From Pontiella desulfatans (GTDB lineage: Bacteria > Verrucomicrobiota > Kiritimatiellia > Kiritimatiellales > Pontiellaceae): 64,000 nucleotides of DNA. A program made the position numbers and the translations under genes. Each line of letters starts with the position of its first letter. The stretch's first letter is position 1. Of this stretch, positions 12,268-47,083 are shown in pieces. Location: positions 62,001 through 126,000 of the forward strand of contig NZ_CAAHFG010000002.1 of NCBI RefSeq assembly GCF_900890425.1, written 5' to 3'. The notes under the pieces are model-generated. The model made no database searches, was not told where the DNA came from, and was given only the letters and a program-made list of their open reading frames with translations.

Positions 12268-12315
12268 AAGTATATCATCCAGCACCCACGATCGGGGGTG
12301 CCGGATGATATACTT
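12268..12315. repeat. 48-nt near-perfect palindrome upstream of the TatD gene
   Basis: Left arm AAGTATATCATCCAGCACCC (12268-12287) and right arm GGGTGCCGGATGATATACTT (12296-12315) pair over 20 bp with one mismatch and an 8-base loop. It lies between the stop of the interrupted sensor gene and the RBS at 12322. It could be a bidirectional terminator or a protein-binding site; the RNA hairpin would end just before the Shine-Dalgarno sequence. Confidence 0.8.
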
Positions 12316-31941: not shown

Positions 31942-31983
31942 ATGTTGCAGTTGTTGTGACGGCCGTCACTCTAACTGCAACAT
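31942..31983. repeat. 42-nt palindrome, downstream copy of PaaX-like element 1
   Basis: An 11-bp arm ATGTTGCAGTT pairs with AACTGCAACAT, with 3-nt internal loops and the self-complementary 14-mer GTGACGGCCGTCAC in the centre. It is a direct copy of 32801-32842 with few changes. The last codons and the TAG stop of the PaaX-like gene (31971-31973) lie in its arm. Confidence 0.95.
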
Positions 31984-32792
31984 CCGGCCTGCTTATCGAT
32001 TTCAAGCAGCAGGGCGCGATGGGCTTCGTGGGCCTGCTTTCCGGCATAGTCGTGCGGGAGCAACGCGGAGGGGAGCAGCGGATCGTCGATCATGGCCGCA
32101 TGATAGGCGGAGAGCGATGCGCGCAATAGCTGGGAGATATCGGCGGGGGCGTGAAGGTCCGACTGAAGCAGTGCGATATTCTTTTGCGTCACGTCTCGGA
32201 AATGTTCCTGTCGTTGGCGGAGTTGCTCGAAATTCCACGAATCTTCCACGATTTGCCGACTGGGCAAGCCCAGAACGCTTCTCGACTCAAACAAATAAGC
32301 GAACGCATCGATGTTGGTTGCCTGGGCGAGGTCATCGAAGTCGGGGCGGATGTCGTCGGGGGTAATCCAAACGCTTTGCTGTAGCTGGCCGAGATGTTTC
32401 CGTTTAAGAAATTGCCGCAGCACATTGCGGTATTTCCTATCCACCTCGGGGACGTCGTAGACCAGCATGTACCAAATCTTGTTCCATGAACGCCCCCAGC
32501 GTTTTTCAGGATGGAAGTAGATGGGAATCACATTTTGTCCGGTTTCGGTCAAATGAAGCCGGGGAGCTTCTCCGCCGGTGCTTCGCGCCGCAACGAGCCC
32601 CTGCTTCAGCAAGCGGGATTTCGCGGAGCGGAAGGCTTTGTCGCTGGGATAGCAGGAGCGGTTGAGAAGCGCCCAGCCGCCCCGGCTAAGGAAGAGCGCG
32701 GAAAGCTCCAGAAGTTCCATGAACTCGACTCCAACGTGTCGCCGCACAACGGGCCAACTGATATCCGGGTTATGGAAATCCTGCCAATCCAT
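31971..32792 (-). CDS. PaaX-like protein with Cas2-like central domain (element 1)
   Basis: 273 residues from the ATG at 32792 (MDWQDFHNPDISWPVVRRHV), 8 bases after the upstream palindrome; a longer frame would start inside the palindrome and is rejected. N-terminal winged helix (residues 1-85: FMELLELSALFLSRGGWALL, SAKSRLLKQGLVAARS), central Cas2-like ferredoxin fold (KIWYMLVYDVPEVDRKYRNV, LGQLQQSVWITPDDIRPDF), and a PaaX C-terminal helical region (AYHAAMIDDPLLPSALLPHD). PaaX proteins are GntR-related repressors of phenylacetate genes, but no such genes lie nearby. It is a close paralogue of the gene at 44774, and its coding region ends inside the downstream palindrome. Confidence 0.85.
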   Translation of the reverse strand: MDWQDFHNPDISWPVVRRHVGVEFMELLELSALFLSRGGWALLNRSCYPSDKAFRSAKSRLLKQGLVAARSTGGEAPRLHLTETGQNVIPIYFHPEKRWGRSWNKIWYMLVYDVPEVDRKYRNVLRQFLKRKHLGQLQQSVWITPDDIRPDFDDLAQATNIDAFAYLFESRSVLGLPSRQIVEDSWNFEQLRQRQEHFRDVTQKNIALLQSDLHAPADISQLLRASLSAYHAAMIDDPLLPSALLPHDYAGKQAHEAHRALLLEIDKQAGCCS

Positions 32793-32800
32793 GAACAGGA

Positions 32801-32842
32801 GTGTTGCAGTTGTGCTGACGGCCGTCAATATAACTGCAACAT
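32801..32842. repeat. 42-nt palindrome, upstream copy of PaaX-like element 1
   Basis: Same 11-3-14-3-11 layout as 31942-31983: outer arms GTGTTGCAGTT/AACTGCAACAT and centre TGACGGCCGTCA. It lies 8 bases before the ATG of the PaaX-like gene. On that gene's strand the core reads TTGACGGCCGTC, so it might also carry a -35-like box. Confidence 0.95.
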
Positions 32843-44723: not shown

Positions 44724-44765
44724 GCGTCTAATTAGAATTGACGGCCGTGAGTTTTAATTAGACGC
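44724..44765. repeat. 42-nt palindrome, upstream copy of PaaX-like element 2
   Basis: Arms GCGTCTAATTA/TAATTAGACGC (11 bp), 3-nt internal loops, and centre TTGACGGCCGTGAG. The layout and length are identical to those of element 1 but the arm sequence differs. It ends 9 bases before the ATG of the PaaX-like gene. Confidence 0.95.
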
Positions 44766-44773
44766 TTCGGGGC

Positions 44774-45595
44774 ATGAAATGGGTGCGGTTCCATCATCCG
44801 GATATCAGCATTCCCGTGGTTCGTCGCAAGATTGCGCTTGAATTGATGGAGATGTTGCAACTATCGGCATTGTTCATGACGCGCGGTGGGTGGGCGGTGT
44901 TGAACCGTTCGTGCTATCCGGACAAGAAAGCCTATCGCAACGCCACCTATCGCCTGCGAAAGGCGGGCTTGGTGGTTCACCGCAAGGAGGAAGGTCCGGA
45001 GATTCCGCGGCTGGAGCTGACGCCCGCGGCGAAGGAAAGCCTTCCGGCCTATTTCAATCCCGAGGCGCGATGGGACAAAAAATGGAACACCATCTGGTAT
45101 ATGCTGGTGTACGATGTTCCGGAAGCCGACCGGCCGTATCGCGATGTCCTGCGTCGGTTCCTTAAGCAGGAAAGGCTGGGGTGTTTGCAACAGAGCGTCT
45201 GGGTAACGCCGCGGGACATCCGTCCGCAATTCGATGATTTGGTCAAGGCGGCGGCGGTGGATTCGTTCGCGTTCCTCTTCGAATCCCGCACCGTGCTTGG
45301 TTTGCCTAATTCGAGGGTGGCAGATCAGGCCTGGAACTTGGATCGGCTATACGATATCCAGCGGCGCTATTGCGAAACGACCGAGCAAAACCTGGATCTA
45401 TTGGCCGGGAGTTGCAGCGATGAGGAAGTGGGAGCCTTAATGCGGTTGGCGCTAGAGGCCTTTCACAGCGCCTTTGCTGAAGATCCCTTGCTGCCGTCCG
45501 TGTTGCTTCCGCGGAACTACCAAGGCCGCCGGGCGTGGGAACTGCATTGCAGGATGATGTCCGCCATTGGGCAACGGCTCGGGGCGTCTAATTAG
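44774..45595 (+). CDS. PaaX-like protein with Cas2-like central domain (element 2)
   Basis: 273 residues, the same length as the element-1 protein. N-terminal winged helix (MKWVRFHHPDISIPVVRRKI; LELMEMLQLSALFMTRGGWA; RNATYRLRKAGLVVHRKE), Cas2-like centre (TIWYMLVYDVPEADRPYRDV; RLGCLQQSVWVTPRDIRPQF) and PaaX C-terminus (AFAEDPLLPSVLLPRNYQGR). The stop TAG (45593-45595) is inside the downstream palindrome, at nearly the same place as in element 1. The Cas2-like fold lacks an obvious catalytic Asp cluster beyond YDVPE, so nuclease activity is uncertain. DNA-binding autoregulator and recombination factor are the two main readings. Confidence 0.85.
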   Translation: MKWVRFHHPDISIPVVRRKIALELMEMLQLSALFMTRGGWAVLNRSCYPDKKAYRNATYRLRKAGLVVHRKEEGPEIPRLELTPAAKESLPAYFNPEARWDKKWNTIWYMLVYDVPEADRPYRDVLRRFLKQERLGCLQQSVWVTPRDIRPQFDDLVKAAAVDSFAFLFESRTVLGLPNSRVADQAWNLDRLYDIQRRYCETTEQNLDLLAGSCSDEEVGALMRLALEAFHSAFAEDPLLPSVLLPRNYQGRRAWELHCRMMSAIGQRLGASN

Positions 45596-45625
45596 ATTTC
45601 ACGGCCGTGAGTTTTAATTAGACGC
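45584..45625. repeat. 42-nt palindrome, downstream copy of PaaX-like element 2
   Basis: Arms identical to 44724-44765 and centre TTCACGGCCGTGAG; it differs from the upstream copy at a few bases left of the centre. It contains the stop codons of two convergent genes: the PaaX-like gene (TAG at 45593) and the PLP enzyme gene (TAA at 45614 on the minus strand). Confidence 0.95.
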
Positions 45626-47083
45626 TTTGGGGAGGGCGCGGGTTAGGCGGGCGATCAGTTCTTCGCTGGATTCCAGGCCGACGGAGATGCGGATGAGGTG
45701 GCGGGAGGCCCCGGCGGTTTCGGCCCATTCGAGCTCGTTGTAGTGCGCGATCAAGGTGAAGGGGCAACAGAGACTGAAGCTGGTGCCGAGGTTGGGGCCT
45801 TTGGTGATTTCGAGCGCATCGTAGAAGGCTTCGGTGTGTTTTTCGGCCTCCTTGAGCACGAAGGAAAACAACCCGCCGTAGCCGCCGTCGGGGCGGCGGA
45901 AGCGGTCATACATTTCCTGGTCCGTGAAGGCCGGATAATAAACCGACTCGACGGCCGGGTGGGCATTCAGGAACTCACACACGGCGAGCGCGTTCCGGTT
46001 GATTTGTTCCACGCGCTCCCGGCAGCAACGGGACTCCTCGGCCAGTTGGATGGCATCGGATGGATGGAAGGCTTCCGGTTCGTGGATGGCTTCGAGTGCC
46101 GCCTTGAAGCGTTTGGCGAACGGAGCTTCCGGATTAATGATCAGGGCGCCGCCCATTACATCGCTGGTGCCGGAGAAAAACTTGGTGAGGCTGATGGCCG
46201 AAACGTCGGAAAGGGGCAAGGTGTTCTGGTTGATGCATGCGCCGAGGGTTTCATCGATGATGATCGGGAAACCGTGCTGGTTCGCCAGTTCCCGTAGTTT
46301 GATGAGATCAATGCAGGTCAGCAGGGGATTGGTCGGGAACTCGCAGAACAGGCCGCCGACCGCCGTGGAATGAAGGGCGGTTTCCAGAGCTTGGAGATCT
46401 TCGGCATCGCCGCGCGCATAGAAGAGTGCGGGCTTGTGGCCCATTTTATTCTGCAACTTCAGCGTGTCGCCGTAGGGGAATGCATATTGAACCGTTGGTC
46501 GGCCGGGATGGATCTGTTGGACGGCAAGGAAGGCGGCGTTGATGGCGGACATGCCGCATGAAAAGAGATAGATGTCGTCCTTGTGCGCACCCGTAAACTC
46601 GGCCAACCGGTCGATGATCTCGTTGCGTGCCGTGGAAGCATCCGGGAGCGGTTCCTGGTTCAGCAGGGCTTCGGCGCAACGGGATGAGATGCCTTCGCCG
46701 GCATGCTGCCAGTAGTCCTTTGCATCGTCGGCGCACGCTGCCGGGTAGGAAACCAGGTTGTCGCGCAACTCGATTTTTGCATACGGATGGTGGTGCAGCA
46801 GATATTCGCGGCAACGCACCGCCGCCTTGTGCGTTGCATAGATCTGGACGTGCTCCCCTTCGTTGCGGAATTGGTCGAACGCCTGCTCGACCAGGGGGTG
46901 GTAGAAAAAGCGCGGATAGCCGAGCTTCAGCTTTTCCATGGTGGCCGGATCCTTCTCCTCGTAGCCAACCACATCCTGCCAGCGGGGCAGGCACATGGAG
47001 ATGGCGTGTTTGGTGTCCGGGATGGGTTTGCCCAAATCCTCGGCCCGCCAGAGTGGGTGGTTGCGTAGGGTTTCTTGCGGCAT
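45614..47083 (-). CDS. Cys/Met metabolism PLP enzyme (cystathionine gamma-synthase-like), long form
   Basis: 489 residues, about 100 longer than usual because of an N-terminal region of about 135 residues (MPQETLRNHPLWRAEDLGKP; ISMCLPRWQDVVGYEE). The aspartate-aminotransferase-fold core has FSCGMSAINAAFLAVQQ, FCEFPTNPLLTCIDL, IIIDETLGACIN and the PLP lysine in ISLTKFFSGTSDVMGGAL. The long N-terminus recalls fungal cystathionine gamma-synthases. It probably acts in transsulfuration. It starts 5 bases after the stop of the next PLP gene. The last codons (Ala-Ser-Asn-stop) lie in the element-2 palindrome, so the C-terminus may have been rewritten. Confidence 0.85.
   Translation of the reverse strand: MPQETLRNHPLWRAEDLGKPIPDTKHAISMCLPRWQDVVGYEEKDPATMEKLKLGYPRFFYHPLVEQAFDQFRNEGEHVQIYATHKAAVRCREYLLHHHPYAKIELRDNLVSYPAACADDAKDYWQHAGEGISSRCAEALLNQEPLPDASTARNEIIDRLAEFTGAHKDDIYLFSCGMSAINAAFLAVQQIHPGRPTVQYAFPYGDTLKLQNKMGHKPALFYARGDAEDLQALETALHSTAVGGLFCEFPTNPLLTCIDLIKLRELANQHGFPIIIDETLGACINQNTLPLSDVSAISLTKFFSGTSDVMGGALIINPEAPFAKRFKAALEAIHEPEAFHPSDAIQLAEESRCCRERVEQINRNALAVCEFLNAHPAVESVYYPAFTDQEMYDRFRRPDGGYGGLFSFVLKEAEKHTEAFYDALEITKGPNLGTSFSLCCPFTLIAHYNELEWAETAGASRHLIRISVGLESSEELIARLTRALPKASN

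Follow-up and report, generated by a model that had tools for sequence, protein, structure and literature searches.

Palindrome-flanked PaaX/Cas2-like genes and their dispersed cognate palindromes in Pontiella desulfatans, a candidate REPtron-like unit

Architecture of the palindrome-flanked modules

The window analysed here, a stretch of 64,000 nucleotides from Pontiella desulfatans, contains at positions 44724-45625 a compact module of 902 bases (element 2), in which a gene of 273 codons lies between two palindromes that have identical arms (Table 1). The start codon lies 8 nt beyond the end of the left palindrome, and at its other end the gene runs into the right palindrome, from which it takes its final codons and its stop (GCG TCT AAT TAG). 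Read on the opposite strand, this right palindrome provides the stop of the convergent neighbour (GCG TCT AAT TAA), a PLP-enzyme gene (window 45614-47083, minus strand) whose terminal KASN-stop comes from the element 2 palindrome. The module insertion appears to have rewritten the C-terminus of this enzyme, because its orthologues without an adjoining module have other terminal residues and their own stop.

A homologous module, element 1 (31942-32842, 901 bases), has its gene on the minus strand. A preliminary description of both elements, made from the letters of the window alone, gave lengths of 902 and 901 bases, a 273-codon gene in both and 42-nt palindromes at both ends, all of which hold when the coordinates are re-read. 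It also stated that arms match within an element and that the two elements share their centre. The first statement is exact for element 2, in which all four arms read GCGTCTAATTA, a sequence found nowhere else in the window (0.01 expected), but not for element 1, whose fourth arm (GTGTTGCAGTT) carries one mismatch. As for the centre, the right palindrome of element 2 reads CACGGCCGT, so that the longer sequence is not shared and the centre common to both elements is the 8-mer ACGGCCGT.

Table 1. Coordinates of the module features and of the solo palindrome in the window
Feature	Window position	Strand	Description
Solo palindrome	12270..12313		arms GTATATCATC, those of module C4:582983
Element 1 palindrome 3' of its gene	31942..31983		arms ATGTTGCAGTT
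Element 1 gene, 273 aa	31971..32792	-	product ~54% identical to element 2 protein
Element 1 palindrome 5' of its gene	32801..32842		pattern and palindrome model
Element 2 left palindrome	44724..44765		GCGTCTAATTA-GAA-TTGACGGCCGTGAG-TTT-TAATTAGACGC; model R1, 48.0 bits
Element 2 module gene, 273 aa	44774..45595	+	PaaX_M and PaaX_C domain matches
Element 2 right palindrome	45584..45625		same arms as left copy; 48.5 bits

Beyond what had been described, the analysis revealed the two stop codons supplied by the right palindrome of element 2, seven more modules, and solo palindromes with the arms of the modules throughout the genome, one of them inside the window. The window genome (G000, 8.66 Mb in six contigs) thus holds nine module genes, and the eight other than element 2 are 45-62% identical to it. 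Since no within-genome copy exceeds ~62% identity to element 2, the modules are not multiplying at present; near-identical copies at different loci, as for a mobile insertion element, were not found in this genome. Palindromes flank all nine modules, with element-specific arms and a centre that reads ACGGCCGT or ACGATCGT with small departures. The identity between upstream and downstream arms is 0.87 in one element versus 0.37 between elements, which bears out the constant core with element-specific arms proposed from the first two modules. Two modules (L007 at G000:C1:3339473 and L009 at C4:582983) have additional palindromes 100-150 nt outside the gene, forming small arrays.

The palindrome centre is CG(GC|AT)CG across the family. 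This pattern is far beyond chance: when all 256 palindromic 8-mers were screened for complementary flanks in 800 kb of contig C4, ACGGCCGT gave 7 cases and ACGATCGT 6, against 1 for all others. Complementary pairs occupy 87.6% of the pair cells in a gap-free alignment of 51 palindromes, versus 55.6% after shuffling and 32-39% after sliding; the same 51 sequences hold no conserved copy of a GTAG tag. At solo sites complementarity is complete mid-arm, is weaker between core and arm, and has fallen to background ~29 bases away from the centre. The arm mismatches (14 A-C, 7 G-T) show no wobble preference and, because A-C is at least as frequent as G-T, the palindrome seems to fit a duplex site and not an RNA. 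The two halves of a flanking palindrome often carry different inner variants, unlike those of solo sites, which are usually symmetric. No target-site duplication is evident in the module flanks, where empty sites are too diverged for base-level comparison.

A PaaX-fold protein with a Cas2-like domain

The element 2 protein consists of an N-terminal winged helix, a Cas2-like domain (residues 102-179) and a PaaX C-terminal domain (187-262). Pfam PaaX_M (E 3.6e-22, 78.7 bits) and PaaX_C (E 3.1e-5, 24.7 bits) pass their gathering cut-offs of 24 and 22 bits, respectively. By contrast, TIGR02277, the PaaX regulator of phenylacetate degradation, scores 59.0 and 63.8 bits against an equivalog cut-off of 264.55, and Cas2 profiles from Pfam/NCBIfam remain below their cut-offs (16.5 versus 23.8 bits and 14.6 versus 24.5 bits). 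PaaX_M, PaaX_C and a weak Cas2 were the only matches of the Pfam scan, from which Y1_Tnp was absent. The AlphaFold model of the protein (pLDDT 86.5) matches E. coli PaaX (8a39, Z 14.6), and its residues 105-184 match Cas2 chains with Z of 7 to 8.2. This domain has the ferredoxin-like fold with an Asp closing the first strand, as in Cas2, and the Cas2-type residues Asp114, Glu117, Arg123, Gln139 and Ser141 are invariant in 44 of 44 family members; the Asp is missing from both E. coli PaaX and M. tuberculosis Rv0674. Judged from these profile and fold comparisons, the module protein has the PaaX fold without being the PaaX regulator itself. The Cas2 fold and its Asp are no proof of nuclease activity.

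The module protein evolves faster than the proteins encoded next to it: neighbours are mostly 67-95% identical between species, and the module protein far less. Arm similarity tracks protein similarity (Mantel rho 0.355, 0 of 2000 permutations), in line with the co-evolution of arms and protein suspected in the preliminary description. The more specific expectation that arms covary with the winged helix was not borne out, as the Mantel signal is equally strong for the Cas2-like and C-terminal domains and thus common to all, and per-column partial correlation with the arms gave no enrichment at recognition-helix residues. Orthologues at the trp locus nonetheless suggest that the helix changes with arm type.

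Solo palindromes and their distribution across genomes

We sampled 72 solo palindromes in the window genome, and in most of them both halves have arms that match one of the nine resident modules. They are often perfect palindromes of 40-56 nt, and 65 of them (90%) are intergenic versus 13% of random positions. According to heuristic gene calls, 38 of the 72 stand between tandem, 17 between convergent and 10 between divergent genes. The GTATATCATC arm type has 20 sites genome-wide, all with 0 mismatches over 18 arm positions (0 in a reversed-pattern control), three of which stand at their own module. For the GCGTCTAATT arm type of element 2 there are 10 sites, seven of them with 0 mismatches and two at their own module. 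Extrapolating from the density on C4, the whole genome may hold roughly 150 solo palindromes. Dispersed solo copies have inner non-essential bases in common, which are the same in both halves in 13 of 17 cases versus 5.8 expected. They are alike and symmetric among the GTATATCATC-type copies, which points to copying or conversion; the trend recurs in other arm types, although not always significantly.

Some palindromes of the window genome belong to orphan types (TTAAATCC and GTGTAATCC; sites L050, L051, L053, L060, L218, L220 and C4:657460) that match no module gene there. A related genome has a TTAAATCC-type module (L033), and these orphans are possibly remnants of a lost module.

The module gene occurs in 19 of 58 genomes searched, in 1 to 9 copies each. 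GTDB gave 52 loci, recorded as Pontiella, Kiritimatiellota, Lentisphaerae or Verrucomicrobia (one Spartobacteria). Palindromes flank nearly every family member examined, down to 36-40% identity, and the majority of the distant members share this layout and the centre CG(AT|GC)CG, with a few lacking a palindrome in this search. No relatives were found in viral contigs, and in plasmids only distant PaaX regulators matched. Within the genus, palindromes were detected in all 14 genomes with the gene versus one of 14 without it (Fisher P 7e-7). The RNA-model scan, which depends on the CG..CG core and scores 150 candidates per genome, so that its counts are lower bounds, finds them in at least 12 of the 14 gene-bearing genomes, and pattern search added G024 and G027, where this cap had hidden them. 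Gene presence predicts the palindromes paralogue by paralogue. The exception among genomes without the gene is G012, a fragmented assembly (85% complete) with eight palindrome matches, of type GTCACACATAAA at the one site read, and no module gene found.

The same loci hold the module in several species and, as had been proposed from elements 1 and 2, arms vary between modules and agree within them: at orthologous loci they often differ by species while matching inside each module. At the element 2 locus, module and palindromes are present in G000, G008 and G001, whereas in G004, G013 and G026 the same two neighbours have neither the gene nor palindromes between them. This indicates that the module comes and goes as a whole, a discrete presence or absence at one locus as for a mobile element.

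Some solo sites also hold their positions. Of ~23 solo sites from other genomes, five share their intergenic region with a site sampled in the window genome (C4:109249/L104, window 12291/L118, L251/L189, L252/L192 and L232/L116) and two more lie at the same gene end (L248 with L182 and L188), with well under one expected as estimated from the sampled fraction of the genome. The arms differ at four of these shared positions, each following the module of its own genome. The window site 12291 has GTATATCATC arms and the orthologous intergenic site in G008 (L118) has ATAACAGAT arms, which parallels the arm change between the orthologous modules L009 and L040. The sister genomes G024 and G027 differ in solo sites that one has and the other lacks; the intergenic DNA is too diverged to show clean 44-nt empty sites, and this comparison revealed no recent transposition event at base level. 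One of these sites (L188, G024:C1:3241865) stands within a longer inverted repeat (CCCGCGAATAAA...TTTATTCGCGGG) that covers the end of the flanking gene, and the sister genome has neither the palindrome nor the longer repeat, which suggests that L188 may have formed by fold-back copying.

Possible mode of action and relation to known systems

That the module protein binds the palindromes is well supported at the level of sequence. Going further, we believe, with a confidence somewhat above even, that the module is a REPtron-like unit in which the PaaX/Cas2-type protein binds its cognate palindromes as a dimer and drives their copying or upkeep. A symmetric dimer would bind its own palindrome, with one winged helix reading each of the two variable arms, which lie ~20 bp from each other, and with the constant centre covered by the Cas2-like and C-terminal parts. 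The flanking palindromes would be the protein's own cognate sites, with the upstream copy placed for autoregulation, and the same protein would also be dedicated to the solo cognate palindromes, some 10 to 20 for each arm type, which it would spread or homogenise. Homogenisation and spread would require the DNA to be processed, and the conserved Cas2-type Asp is the natural candidate for this step. Most likely, the Cas2-type acidic site would cut at or near the centre, and the cut palindrome would be copied via a hairpin or gene conversion.

The conserved position of several solo sites between species would also fit a functional regulatory site, and the main rival explanation is that the protein is a global regulator, namely a PaaX-type repressor or a chromosome organiser without enzymatic function. 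The scattered palindromes would then be operators, the flanking pair would serve autoregulation, and the arms of paralogues would have diverged against cross-talk. The protein shares its fold and overall domain order with PaaX, the spacing of the arm half-sites is about that of the known PaaX operator (TGATTC-N27-GAATCA; PMC9493321), and site arms are nearly invariant within the genome. Such a regulator would, however, give no reason why nearly every module gene should have another palindrome at its stop codon. Solo sites stand mostly downstream of or between genes and are not promoter-specific, as the few divergent contexts indicate, their common inner sequences and perfect symmetry suggest copying, one gene end bears sites of different paralogues in different species, and the Cas2-type Asp is retained. 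We consequently regard regulation without copying as unlikely, though deserving serious attention.

The remaining explanations are far less probable than a global regulator. The preliminary description envisaged the centre as a strand-exchange site, and in a site-specific recombination system the module would integrate into solo palindromes via the shared core. The constant centre with variable arms and the frequent pairing of two inner half-variants in flanking palindromes, against mostly symmetric solo sites, speak in favour of such integration. Yet neither Pfam nor fold comparison gave a recombinase fold for the module protein, no evidence for a strand-exchange site was found, different paralogues have different arms, and the three module-free element 2 loci (G004, G013, G026) hold no solo palindrome as an empty target, making this scenario quite improbable. 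Even less credible is a role of the palindromes as RNA, either as intrinsic terminators or as structured leaders of the module and other genes. Perfect palindromes fold as RNA and many solo sites directly follow stop codons, but G-T pairs are not preferred over A-C, TTT lies near only 25 of 144 ends, a terminator search at the module found none, and element-specific arms would be useless to a terminator; we accordingly rejected the RNA hairpin or terminator. The least plausible of all is that these are ordinary REPs moved by the Y1 (RAYT-like) transposases of the genus, with the PaaX-like gene as a bystander. Y1 transposase genes are indeed common in the genus, but they also occur in genomes without any palindrome, none of 30 Y1 loci (85 kb) carries one, and the palindromes track the PaaX-like gene and their arms the individual paralogue, so that a RAYT was rejected as the driver.

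REPs are among the commonest bacterial repeats and, to our knowledge, the HUH-type RAYT is the only dedicated protein known for them. The REP/RAYT REPtron (Nunvar 2010, PMC2817692; Corneloup 2021, PMC8266576) resembles the REPtron-like unit proposed here in that a repeat pair flanks the gene. Also shared are the many cognate extragenic copies, the prediction of repeats by gene presence, and a gene that evolves faster than its neighbours and co-evolves with its palindrome (PMC2817692). By contrast, the module protein is PaaX/Cas2-like, unrelated to RAYTs, without the HUH or catalytic tyrosine of an IS200/IS605-type Y1 transposase. Its palindromes, at 42-56 nt, exceed REPs in length; they have CG(GC|AT)CG as their centre of symmetry and no GTAG tag, and appear to be duplex sites, not folded single strands. 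In its genomic traits the module behaves like a REPtron but is no member of that class.

Other known systems share only parts of this organisation. PaaX repressors (E. coli PaaX 8a39; M. tuberculosis Rv0674, 3kfw) have the three-domain fold and a comparable half-site spacing, but the module protein falls far below their equivalog cut-off (59 of 264.55 bits) and keeps the Cas2-type Asp/Glu/Arg, and its gene lies between two palindromes of its own and has many solo sites. Cas2/VapD nucleases have the ferredoxin-like domain with the motif YD(V/I)PE...R...LR.FL...G...Q.SV; in the module this domain is fused to a winged helix and PaaX_C, scores below Cas2 cut-offs, and comes without a CRISPR array or toxin-antitoxin partner. 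CGTC-tagged REPs, a large class whose driver is not known (PMC3733652), are likewise dispersed palindromes without a RAYT, but their tag is at one end, they have no symmetric core, and a dedicated gene was not found for them. Our search, which covered the open-access literature, found no paper tying PaaX-like genes to dispersed palindromes.

More tentatively, and with a confidence short of even, the modules could represent a second class of self-spreading repetitive palindromes, evolved independently of REP/RAYT, with a Cas2-like nuclease as driver and, fused to it, a winged helix that reads the palindromes. Arms and protein would change specificity in step, and new arm types would displace old ones at the genomic positions that these occupied. 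If true, the PaaX/Cas2-type protein would be a case of convergence and would suggest what type of driver RAYT-less repeats may have. A palindrome-linked function of Cas2-like folds outside CRISPR would follow as well, with a role in moving palindromic repeats. The nine protein-palindrome pairs in one genome, together with the arm-switched orthologues, would offer a natural data set on how DNA-binding specificity and targets change together.

In G009 (L037) and G021 (L046), a frameshift or truncation has broken the module gene, at a locus where other species have it intact. In the window genome, the gene of module L004 (G000:C1:4199220-4200023, minus strand) has an in-frame TAG at the codon of the invariant Gln139 and looks recently inactivated; despite this, its palindromes (GACCCCACGGAAAA) remain near-perfect, as do their solo copies.
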